A stretch of DNA of 42,138 nucleotides, taken from NCBI GenBank assembly GCA_017854795.1, contig JAFMHB010000011.1, positions 43,131-85,268 on the forward strand, in the 5' to 3' direction. The notes beneath the pieces were generated by a model that did no database searches, was not told the origin of the DNA, and worked only from the letters and a program-made list of their open reading frames with translations. The translations under genes were made by a program, and so were the position numbers. The stretch comes from Candidatus Nanopelagicales bacterium (GTDB taxonomy: Bacteria; Actinomycetota; Actinomycetes; S36-B12). Of the stretch, positions 33,936-36,552 are shown piece by piece (positions within the stretch are counted from its first letter, which is position 1; each line of letters begins with the position of its first letter).

Positions 33936-34039
33936 TTATTGCTTTCCTGTAGAAGTAGTTGCTCCCCGTTAGGAGATTGTTAAGGCTACTCCTGACCTAA
34001 ATCGGGTCCATGAAAAGCATGACCGGTCAATTGGGTTAC

Positions 34040-34055
34040 ATACCCCATGGGGTAT
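34040..34055. promoter_or_regulatory. Perfect 16-bp palindrome, CsoR-family-like operator, within a promoter
   Basis: ATACCCCATGGGGTAT is a complete palindrome of the TACCCC...GGGGTA type bound by copper- or persulfide-sensing CsoR/CstR repressors. A -35-like TTGGGT lies at 34031-34036 and a -10-like TATCCT at 34053-34058, 16 nt apart, so a bound protein would block RNA polymerase. The controlled gene would be the micro-ORF at 34101 and possibly its neighbours. The sensor gene itself is not in the window. Confidence 0.65.
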
Positions 34056-34100
34056 CCTATCGATCCGATCTCATAAGGTCTTAGTCAAAAGGAGTTATCT

Positions 34101-34217
34101 ATGTGTAGTCCAGCACCCTGTCAATCTTGCAACAAAATCACCTGGTCCGGCTGCGGCGAGCACGTTGCCGAAGTAATGGCGAATATACCCGCTGCGCAGC
34201 AGTGCACCTGCCGCTAA
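34101..34217 (+). CDS. 38-residue Cys-rich protein
   Basis: A 38-codon frame with AAAGGAG eight nt before ATG. It begins MCSPAPCQSCNKITW and ends QCTCR; Cys at 2, 7, 10, 18, 35 and 37, with His21 in GCGEH. The pattern CxxC...TWxGCGxH...PxxxxCxC recalls small uncharacterised actinobacterial proteins that I have seen near redox and metal genes; function unknown. Six Cys and one His in 38 residues could bind Cu(I) or Zn, or scavenge sulfane sulfur. The CsoR-like operator directly upstream supports a metal or persulfide link. Too short for most gene callers, but the ribosome site, operator and Cys spacing make it credible. Confidence 0.75.
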   Translation: MCSPAPCQSCNKITWSGCGEHVAEVMANIPAAQQCTCR

Positions 34218-34239
34218 TTAGGACATAATTGCAGGTGTG

Positions 34240-34362
34240 ATGGGAGCTCCTGGGCCATGCCCAGCATGTGAGACAACTGACTTAGAGCGCCGTGGCGGCA
34301 AGGATTTCTGCCCCCGCTGCTTTTATATCCAGCCCTGCTGCGATGGAGGAATGTGCCAGTGA
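34240..34362 (+). CDS. 40-residue zinc-ribbon-like Cys-rich protein
   Basis: A 40-codon frame from ATG 34240 (GTG 34237 directly before it is an alternative; CATAAT at 34224-34229 would allow a leaderless start there). CPAC (7-10) and CPRC (24-27), 13 residues apart, form a classic zinc-ribbon pair, and the tail PCCDGGMCQ adds three more Cys. The stop codon overlaps the mycoredoxin start as GTGA, and GGAGGA inside this gene is the likely ribosome site of the next one, so the two are translationally coupled. A structural zinc micro-domain or metal donor to the adjacent thiol enzyme is plausible; no function is known to me. Confidence 0.7.
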   Translation: MGAPGPCPACETTDLERRGGKDFCPRCFYIQPCCDGGMCQ

Positions 34363-34610
34363 TCCGCATGTACAGCGCCGACTGGTGCGGTGACTGTCGT
34401 CGTACCGAATCTCAACTCAATGAACTTGGGGTTGCTTTCGAGTACCTCGACGTTGACGCCCACCCAGAACACAAAGCCCGGGCAATTGAGATCAGTGGCA
34501 AACCCAACATCCCCGTGGTTGTTTTTCCCGACGAAAGCTACCTAGTGGAACCAGCCAACTTCGAACTTGAGTTGAAGTTGCAGCAATTAAATCTGATCGA
34601 TCAAGCCTGA
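34359..34610 (+). CDS. Mycoredoxin-like glutaredoxin
   Basis: 83 residues from GTG 34359. Another GTG at 34353 is in frame, but GGAGGA is 8-9 nt from 34359 and only 2-3 nt from 34353, and the inner start gives the coupling overlap GTGA. The sequence IRMYSADWCGDCRRTESQLNEL carries the CGDC redox motif, then YLDVDAHPEHKARAIEISGKPNIPVVVFPDESYL with the cis-Pro region of the glutaredoxin fold. In actinobacteria such proteins use mycothiol to reduce mixed disulfides. CGDC instead of the usual CGYC or CPYC should change the redox potential or partner choice. Confidence 0.85.
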   Translation: MIRMYSADWCGDCRRTESQLNELGVAFEYLDVDAHPEHKARAIEISGKPNIPVVVFPDESYLVEPANFELELKLQQLNLIDQA

Positions 34611-34689: not shown

Positions 34690-34950
34690 ATGGTCGGTCG
34701 TCGTGGAATGGGAATTGTTGGAGTTGCCGCAACCGCAAAGGTTGTCAGTAACCGCACACAAGCTCAAGCTGAGCAGAAAGCTGCAGAGCAAGCGCAACAG
34801 CAGGCAGCGGTGGCTCCTACACCAGCTGCAGCACCAGCGGGCGATGACATGATCGCCCAGTTGGAAAAGCTTGCCAGCCTTAAGGCATCAGGAATTCTTT
34901 CCGAAGAAGAATTCACTGCAGCAAAGGCGAAGCTGATCGCCGGCAGTTAA
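34690..34950 (+). CDS. SHOCT-domain protein
   Basis: 86 residues with AAGGAG upstream of ATG. The N terminus RRGMGIVGVAATAKVV is weakly hydrophobic; a Gln/Ala-rich linker (AEQKAAEQAQQQAAVAPTPAAAPAG) leads to the C-terminal SHOCT motif IAQLEKLASLKASGILSEEEFTAAKAKLI (in outline), a short helical pair often found at the end of membrane or oligomerising proteins. TATACT around 34632-34637 could be its -10, so it is probably transcribed separately from the mycoredoxin. Its role is unknown. Confidence 0.8.
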   Translation: MVGRRGMGIVGVAATAKVVSNRTQAQAEQKAAEQAQQQAAVAPTPAAAPAGDDMIAQLEKLASLKASGILSEEEFTAAKAKLIAGS

Positions 34951-35037: not shown

Positions 35038-35664
35038 ATGAAAACTCCTAAAGCTCACGCAAAATTGACTTCTGTCGCAGTTGGGTTCGCTGTGGGCGTT
35101 TTGGTGCTTGCTGGGTGTTCCTCCGATATGAATGAGGAGGCTGCCGCGCCGAGTGAGGCTGCCGTCGTTGATAGTGCCGACACGGCTGAGACACCGGCTG
35201 AAACTGCAGGTGAATCGCCCGCTGAGACTCCCGGTGGCGCTACAGACCTCCCCGTGGTTGTCACACCACTTCCCGTTTTCTCCAGCACAACACTGGATGG
35301 ACAAGCCGTTACCCAGGCTGACTACGAAGGAAAGCCAACAATCATGTGGTTCTGGGCGCCGTGGTGTTCAGTGTGCCGAGGCGAAGCACCGACGCTGTCC
35401 AAAGTTGCAAGTGAACTCGACGGAAGTGTTGACGTGGTGGGTGTAGCAGCCCTAGGAAGTGTCGACGCGATGAAAACTTTTGTTAGTGACACGGGGATTG
35501 AAAACTTCACCCAACTCGCCGACCCTGACGCGGAAGTGTGGAGCGTCTTCGGTGTGGCCTCTCAGCCAGCATTTGCCTTCATCGGTGCTGACGGTTCAAT
35601 TGATGTCGTGCAGGGTTCAATTGGTGAAGAGGAAATTCTTGAACGAGCAGCGACCCTGAACTAG
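35038..35664 (+). CDS. TlpA/ResA-like thioredoxin-fold lipoprotein
   Basis: 208 residues. Lipobox VLAGC with Cys27 places it on the outer face of the membrane. A Glu/Ala/Thr/Pro-rich linker (~30-70) precedes a thioredoxin-fold domain: PTIMWFWAPWCSVCRGEAPTLSKVASEL with active-site Cys110 and Cys113, VVGVAALGSVDAMKTFV, and the cis-Pro loop ASQPAFAFIG. Similar actinobacterial proteins (DsbE/DsbF-like) act in extracytoplasmic thiol-disulfide exchange. The CcdA gene 18 nt downstream would supply electrons, so this is most likely a reductase for secreted proteins or cytochrome apoproteins. No cytochrome c maturation genes are nearby. Confidence 0.9.
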   Translation: MKTPKAHAKLTSVAVGFAVGVLVLAGCSSDMNEEAAAPSEAAVVDSADTAETPAETAGESPAETPGGATDLPVVVTPLPVFSSTTLDGQAVTQADYEGKPTIMWFWAPWCSVCRGEAPTLSKVASELDGSVDVVGVAALGSVDAMKTFVSDTGIENFTQLADPDAEVWSVFGVASQPAFAFIGADGSIDVVQGSIGEEEILERAATLN

Positions 35665-35682: not shown

Positions 35683-36552
35683 ATGGATACCGCGACACTC
35701 TCGCTCGCGATTGTTGCCGGTGTTCTGGCTACTTTCAATCCCTGCGGTTTTGCATTACTCCCCGCCTACATGGGCATGATTGCTGCCGCAAATGAAGGGC
35801 GCTCAAAGTCACAGGCGTTAGTCGGTGGGCTTCGTTTTGCGTCAGGAATGACCGTCGGATTTATTTTGTTATTTGGAACATTTGGTTTGGTGTTCGCTCC
35901 ATTTGCATCGGCGATATCTCGTTACCTACCCATTGTCACGATTGTTGTTGGAATATTAATTGTTGCACTCGGTTTTTGGCTGCTCCTTGGCCGAAAGGTG
36001 GGGAACGGCGCTGGATTGATCAAGGGCTGGTCACCCGGTGAAAGTTGGTTCTCCCAAGTTGGTTACGGACTGACATTTGCAATCGTGTCCCTGTCATGCA
36101 CATTAGGGCCGTTCCTCGCTGTCACTGGGGCATCTATTCGCTCAAGTGATTTCTTCGGAATTGTGTTCACGTTCGTTGCATTCGCACTCGGGATGGGAGC
36201 AGCCGTCAGTGTTATTGCGGTTGCTACCGCGTTAACCGGATCACAGGTGAGTGTCTGGATGCGTTCCAAGTCTGAGGTGATTTCACGAGTCACTGGTTCA
36301 TTGGTGATTCTCGCGGGACTTTATGTTGCGTGGTTCGGCTGGTTCGAATGGCGCATTAACTCCGGTGAACAGGTTGGTGATCCAATTATTGCTGTGGTAA
36401 CGGATGCACAATCCTGGGTTGTCAACACGTTGAGTTCGCACTCGGGACTCGTGATCTCATTTGTATTCCTGATCGCGTTTATTGGAGTTACCGTGCTTGT
36501 TTTCTCAAAGAAAAAGCGATCTACAAAGTTCGAGAAATCAGAACTTTCATAA
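35683..36552 (+). CDS. ccdA: CcdA-type transmembrane electron carrier
   Basis: 289 residues, with about seven membrane segments. The two functional Cys are visible: FNPCGFALLPAYMG (Cys21) in the first segment and SLSCTLGPFLAVTG (Cys139) in the fourth, the pair that moves electrons from cytosolic thioredoxin to outer-face thioredoxin-like proteins. The length is longer than minimal CcdA (~220) because of a C-terminal helix and basic tail ([15 protein letters not shown]). The upstream TlpA-like lipoprotein is the obvious client. Its last 32 bp overlap the 3' end of the converging acyl-CoA dehydrogenase gene; no terminator separates them. Confidence 0.93.
   Translation: MDTATLSLAIVAGVLATFNPCGFALLPAYMGMIAAANEGRSKSQALVGGLRFASGMTVGFILLFGTFGLVFAPFASAISRYLPIVTIVVGILIVALGFWLLLGRKVGNGAGLIKGWSPGESWFSQVGYGLTFAIVSLSCTLGPFLAVTGASIRSSDFFGIVFTFVAFALGMGAAVSVIAVATALTGSQVSVWMRSKSEVISRVTGSLVILAGLYVAWFGWFEWRINSGEQVGDPIIAVVTDAQSWVVNTLSSHSGLVISFVFLIAFIGVTVLVFSKKKRSTKFEKSELS

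Follow-up and report, generated by a model that had tools for sequence, protein, structure and literature searches.

Which regulator acts at the palindrome that precedes a group of small cysteine-rich genes in Candidatus Nanopelagicales bacterium, and what do the products of these genes do? A sequence-only reading of the window (the whole stretch of DNA analyzed, 42,138 nucleotides) had assigned the palindrome to the CsoR/CstR type and inferred a small metal- or sulfane-sulfur-responsive thiol system, put forward as a candidate for an undescribed one. We addressed the question through the operator, the genes behind it, their homologs, and the regulators of the same genome.

Operator and promoter

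The palindrome ATACCCCATGGGGTAT was confirmed at positions 34040..34055 as a perfect 16-bp inverted repeat of the form TAC-X8-GTA, without strand assignment, and is a predicted CstR site. Its proposed location between promoter elements is weak in the single sequence: the -35-like TTGGGT (34031..34036, forward strand) matches the consensus at 3 of 6 positions and falls under the consensus-scan threshold, the -10-like TATCCT (34053..34058, forward strand) matches at 4 of 6 and overlaps the right arm of the operator, and a consensus scan of the window sequence found no promoter, both hexamers being poor when taken alone. The same proposal gains from the alignment of 73 homologous sites, where a conserved TATANT at the offset of the -10 element continues from the right arm and a mild preference for TTG is seen 18 nt upstream. 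The right arm runs into TATANT across these sites, so that a repressor sitting on the operator would mask the promoter. No Rfam match to a structured RNA was found in the leader.

The genome contains eight copies of the pattern ATACCN6GGTAT and none of its backward reading, so the palindrome is not a chance occurrence. Unlike this 16-bp pattern, TACCCC-N2-GGGGTA with one mismatch (9 sites vs 7 for the reversed pattern) is individually non-significant.

Genes behind the operator

Three small genes follow on the forward strand, as the sequence-only reading had described them: (i) a 38-aa microprotein, MCSPAPCQSCNKITWSGCGEHVAEVMANIPAAQQCTCR (34101..34217), with six cysteines (C2, C7, C10, C18, C35, and C37) and one histidine (H21), (ii) a 40-aa zinc-ribbon-like protein with seven cysteines (34240..34362), for which an alternative in-frame GTG start is possible at 34237, and (iii) an 83-aa mycoredoxin-like CGDC glutaredoxin (34359..34610; PF00462, E 4.6e-14), whose GTG start at 34359 overlaps the zinc-ribbon TGA at 34360-34362 (GTGA). 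All three are genuine genes (dN/dS 0.04-0.12), and a comparison of 8 relatives gave dN/dS values indicative of purifying selection for each of them (0.09 for the microprotein, 0.038 for the zinc ribbon, and 0.12 for the glutaredoxin). In relatives, the glutaredoxin starts with GTG or ATG at the same position. The name mycoredoxin, given to it earlier, holds for a relative only. The protein shares the glutaredoxin fold and a CxxC motif with mycoredoxin (TIGR02200), and its nearest solved structure is Rv3198.1 (PDB 2lqo); it differs by the CGDC motif and by a TIGR02200 score of 60.5 bits, under the family cutoff of 89.5, and its activity is inferred.

Further downstream on the same strand are a SHOCT-domain small protein (34690..34950; PF09851), whose membership in the unit is uncertain, and two possible functional partners, a TlpA/ResA-like lipoprotein thioredoxin (35038..35664; PF00578) and a CcdA/DsbD-TM-like protein (35683..36552; PF02683 at 26.5 bits, just below the cutoff of 27.1). 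In several congeners the TlpA/ResA-like gene lies directly 3' of the glutaredoxin gene, which suggests a longer thiol operon.

The microprotein family

Among 55 homologs selected with no motif filter, C2, C7, C10, C18, H21, and C35, as well as G17 and G19, are invariant, and Cys occupies position 37 in 50 of them, with Gly in the other 5. Loss of Cys37 yields the ending CxGH instead of CxC (17 of 144 homologs). Such an exchange of Cys and His at one position is typical of metal ligands, so we take the core for a metal knuckle, with zinc as the probable metal; metal binding is thus likely from the residue pattern, in the absence of metal data. The AlphaFold2 model (pLDDT 83.7) has a beta-beta-helix (strand-strand-helix) arrangement, and a Foldseek structure search with the microprotein returned no significant match. 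The Met-Cys start is fixed and is preceded by a Shine-Dalgarno sequence in 135 of 143 homologs vs 19 of 143 in the control. Methionine aminopeptidase removes a Met preceding Cys, which may leave Cys2 with a free thiol at the N-terminus.

Two forms of the family were found, a short one of about 38 aa and a long one extended by a C-terminal helix that ends in xxLFGR. Each form is encoded once in the genome studied, and an exact operator precedes both genes; the second, longer copy has 58 aa and the C-terminal helix (G000 C59:12867; positions 1564-1740 of locus L006).

The sequence-only reading would have been refuted by a lack of the micro-ORFs in relatives. The 38-aa frame is widely kept: the microprotein is present in 48 of 57 relatives, in 45 of 296 genomes spread across the phylum, in at least 584 stretches of the genome collection, and on 70 plasmids. 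In the phylum sample, none of the Streptomyces-sized genomes of family f9 has it. Outside Actinomycetota, a homolog occurs in one Archangium-titled MAG (L109). Similar short proteins are known in fungi. Pfam and NCBIfam gave no match above a curated cutoff for the 38-aa protein, PDB sequences gave no family, and the papers searched by function words and sequence strings do not mention it. On Rhodococcus, Microbacterium, and Arthrobacter plasmids, a sulfur island encodes an MBL hydrolase, Trx, rhodanese, DsrE, CcdA, and a 'metal-sensitive regulator'; in the annotation of these plasmids the microprotein is called hypothetical or is absent.

Two database titles are at odds with their contents: a 'Rubrivirga' MAG (L061) and a Nanopelagicales contig (L056) encode nearly the same microprotein, and a sequence titled Bifidobacterium breve (L048) has the microprotein, zinc-ribbon, and glutaredoxin arrangement of the window genus. 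Both are probably mis-binned or mis-titled MAGs.

Operators upstream of microprotein homologs

The earlier expectation that the micro-ORF is preceded by TACCCC-N2-GGGGTA in relatives was borne out. With at most one mismatch, the operator lies within 150 nt upstream in 68 of 120 distinct homologous upstream regions (58 of 103 after removal of similar upstream regions), usually 40-90 nt before the start codon. The controls gave 25 of 1977 (1.3%) for random windows of the same loci, some of these matches being true sites of neighboring genes, and 0 of 120 for the reversed pattern. The mismatch distribution is bimodal, with almost no regions at two or three mismatches, and only the N2 spacer was found; the N3 spacing (TAC-X9-GTA) is absent from all 120 upstream regions. 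A proximal site is lacking in 28 long loci; in 20 of these, a site lies in another part of the locus, frequently at the operon head. For 8 of the 67 long loci, no operator was found within 5 kb.

Persulfide-type and copper-type regulators

An absence of CsoR-family genes would also have refuted the sequence-only reading; the genome has two, on contigs C14 and C55. The C14 product (PF02583, 78.8 bits) contains Cys35 and Cys64 and lacks the copper-type His four residues before Cys64. Its nearest solved chains are 7mq1/7mq2, of which 7MQ2 is referred to as CstR (PMC9774590). The C55 product has the copper His, matches RicR, and is encoded next to a CopZ gene; its own site, ATACCCCCAAGGGGTAT, has the form TAC-X9-GTA. 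These spacings agree with published ones: the persulfide sensor of Streptomyces coelicolor binds ATACCn6GGTAT, with the same spacing as the window operator (PMC7533328), and the copper CsoR of Streptomyces lividans has a TAC-X9-GTA site (PMC3902906).

Seven of the eight ATACCN6GGTAT sites are G/C-tract palindromes and convincing X8 sites. They precede cstR itself, a thioredoxin gene, a rhodanese gene followed by an MBL-rhodanese gene, a rhodanese lipoprotein gene, a SLAC1/TDT anion transporter gene with a divergent gene, the window unit, and the second microprotein gene. The sequence-level features of a CstR regulon are present, namely, (i) a two-Cys, His-less regulator, (ii) an X8 operator, (iii) rhodanese/persulfide dioxygenase-like co-targets, and (iv) predicted autoregulation, given the X8 site at the cstR promoter. 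The window site, being X8, lacks the TAC-X9-GTA spacing of a copper CsoR/RicR regulon.

The same association is seen across genomes. The CsoR-family genes adjoining microprotein homologs all score best as the CstR type, without His. In the 296 genomes, 29 have both the microprotein and CstR, 16 the microprotein alone, and 18 CstR alone (Fisher P 7.7e-17; P 9e-5 for order-level co-occurrence), and the two genes lie within 5 kb of each other in 21 of 30 genomes vs 0.13 expected. The 16 of 45 microprotein-positive genomes without CstR were defined at a strict threshold; in one such genome, G337, a full-length CstR match adjoining the microprotein gene falls just above that threshold. At least one CstR-type regulator, rhodanese, MBL-rhodanese, or thioredoxin gene is found nearby in 48 of 67 long loci. 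The neighbors are sulfurtransferases and thiol reductases and not zinc transporters; they vary, with no single fixed partner, and the commonest immediate-neighbor family is rhodanese (14 of 104).

Few genes of the actinobacterial CstR regulon bear the operator as consistently as the microprotein gene, which is sometimes present in two copies and occurs on both chromosomes and plasmids. The regulon itself is known; the new element is this conserved and previously unnamed member, whose regulation is strongly supported, without expression or binding data. In many actinobacteria the CstR switch precedes this metal-binding-looking protein, which none of the libraries searched describes; hence, it very probably fills a gap in the account of how these bacteria deal with reactive sulfur.

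Limits of the three-gene unit

The sequence-only reading had asked whether the 38- and 40-residue frames stay linked. They do so essentially in this genus only: elsewhere the zinc-ribbon gene is usually unlinked, lacks the operator, and lies beside varying genes, and most microprotein homologs stand behind the operator without any glutaredoxin. A fixed three-gene system was rejected on this ground, and the conserved unit is the operator with the microprotein and the CstR regulon. Of the 'undescribed system', what remains is a microprotein family undescribed in the libraries searched; its conserved setting is the CstR regulon.

The zinc ribbon (present in 25 of 57 relatives) is apparently an independent, small and conserved protein recruited into the window operon. 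Its sequence (PGPCPACE..LERRGGKDFCPRCYYIQPCCDGG), at 34240-34362 of the window and in loci L165-L190, is conserved across the family and matches no known protein family. A phage origin was considered and rejected, a phage match being absent.

Proposed mechanism and alternatives

With moderate confidence, we explain the window genes as a CstR-controlled persulfide response unit, in which a metal-thiolate microprotein serves as a sulfane-sulfur acceptor or relay. CstR bound to the palindrome would fill the -35/-10 spacer, run into the -10 hexamer, and block transcription. Rising persulfide or polysulfide would modify the two Cys of CstR and release it from DNA. This step is inferred here; it has been established for CstR of S. 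aureus and ScCsoR of S. coelicolor. The first gene would encode a small knuckle that begins with an invariant Met-Cys and in which thiolates hold a metal, probably zinc. These thiolates may act as an inducible acceptor, drawing sulfur from polysulfide or from persulfides on proteins, and may hand it to the co-regulated rhodaneses and MBL-rhodanese; the co-transcribed mycoredoxin-like protein and the regulon thioredoxin would reset it. The genes, the operator, the regulon, and the CstR linkage are established at the level of sequence and metal ligation is supported; the relay function is inferred and is the weakest link, since the Cys/His swap favors a structural or metal role over a redox one. 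As a tentative extension, this widespread group of 38- to 60-aa proteins, with its N-terminal Cys and metal-thiolate core, might serve actinobacteria as a dedicated CstR-induced carrier or sink of sulfane sulfur, comparable to a metallothionein but for reactive sulfur instead of metal.

The earlier inference of a metal- or sulfane-sulfur-responsive system can be narrowed to its second branch by the X8 spacing, the His-less neighboring regulators, and the regulon of rhodanese, MBL-rhodanese, and thioredoxin genes, which favor it over the metal branch. A copper-responsive unit under CsoR/RicR is accordingly very improbable, even if the regulator superfamily is the same, the G/C-tract operator is similar, and a RicR/CsoR-type gene adjoins copZ in the genome: the copper gene has an X9 site of its own, N3 sites are missing upstream of the homologs, and copper-type CsoR never occurs beside them. 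Operator spacing and regulator type led us to reject copper CsoR as the regulator. Almost no credence is left for the small ORFs as chance frames, with the palindrome serving the glutaredoxin only. Their short length and the lack of a name for most of them in public records would fit this idea, but the low dN/dS of both frames, the Shine-Dalgarno sequences, and the many operators followed by no glutaredoxin gene refute it.

Within CstR control, two other roles of the microprotein deserve attention. Sulfide and polysulfide could strip or precipitate zinc, and a metallothionein-like reserve or buffer would then keep zinc available. Seven candidate ligands in 38 aa, the Cys/His swap, and a second Cys-rich zinc ribbon in the same transcript fit such a buffer, and exogenous sulfide induces a zinc-limitation transcriptome in S. 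aureus (PMC5480029). We nevertheless regard it as unlikely, given that the neighboring genes belong to sulfur and thiol chemistry and not to zinc transport, and that TWxGCGxH is strictly invariant, which hints at a defined fold or partner. Metallothioneins, by comparison, are loosely conserved. Alternatively, the microprotein might be a zinc-knuckle adaptor that carries no sulfur itself and tunes a sulfurtransferase, thioredoxin, or MBL-rhodanese by binding to it, a role that we consider somewhat doubtful. The predicted knuckle, the frequency of rhodanese as the adjoining gene, and the xxLFGR helix of the longer paralogs are in line with it; the variety of adjoining genes, none of them a fixed partner, and the absence of interaction data speak against it.

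Comparison with known regulons

The S. aureus cst operon (CstR, CstA, CstB, and SQR) resembles the persulfide response unit proposed here in its CsoR-family persulfide sensor without the copper His, its rhodanese and MBL-rhodanese targets, and its G/C-tract palindromic operator. It differs in that no 38-aa microprotein or zinc ribbon is noted in the transcriptome passages of PMC5480029, and the regulon described here is scattered over at least six contigs. The S. coelicolor ScCsoR/ScPDO circuit likewise has a two-Cys CstR-like repressor on ATACCn6GGTAT, with PDO, rhodanese, and exporter targets, whereas it comprises four genes and lacks the microprotein (PMC7533328). The S. lividans CsoR/RicR copper regulon (PMC3902906) is related by repressor fold and operator style and differs by its TAC-X9-GTA sites and copper efflux targets; the genome studied has such a system separately, on C55.

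Persulfide-response regulons have so far been described by enzymes and exporters, and the tiny microprotein adds to the actinobacterial version. Its hosts include soil Rhodococcus, Mycolicibacterium, and Arthrobacter. It is a ready marker for CstR regulons and, being small and easy to produce, lends itself to the question of how cells hold and pass sulfane sulfur; in these genomes, a clear X8 vs X9 rule tells persulfide sites and copper sites apart.

Two of the predicted CstR sites lie between divergent genes. One (G000 C14:21478; locus L009) separates the thioredoxin gene from a DUF3039 gene, so DUF3039 may belong to the regulon. The other (G000 C17:41628; locus L005) separates the SLAC1/TDT-type anion transporter gene from that of a 172-aa protein with a CPVC motif and no family, which recurs near microprotein homologs.
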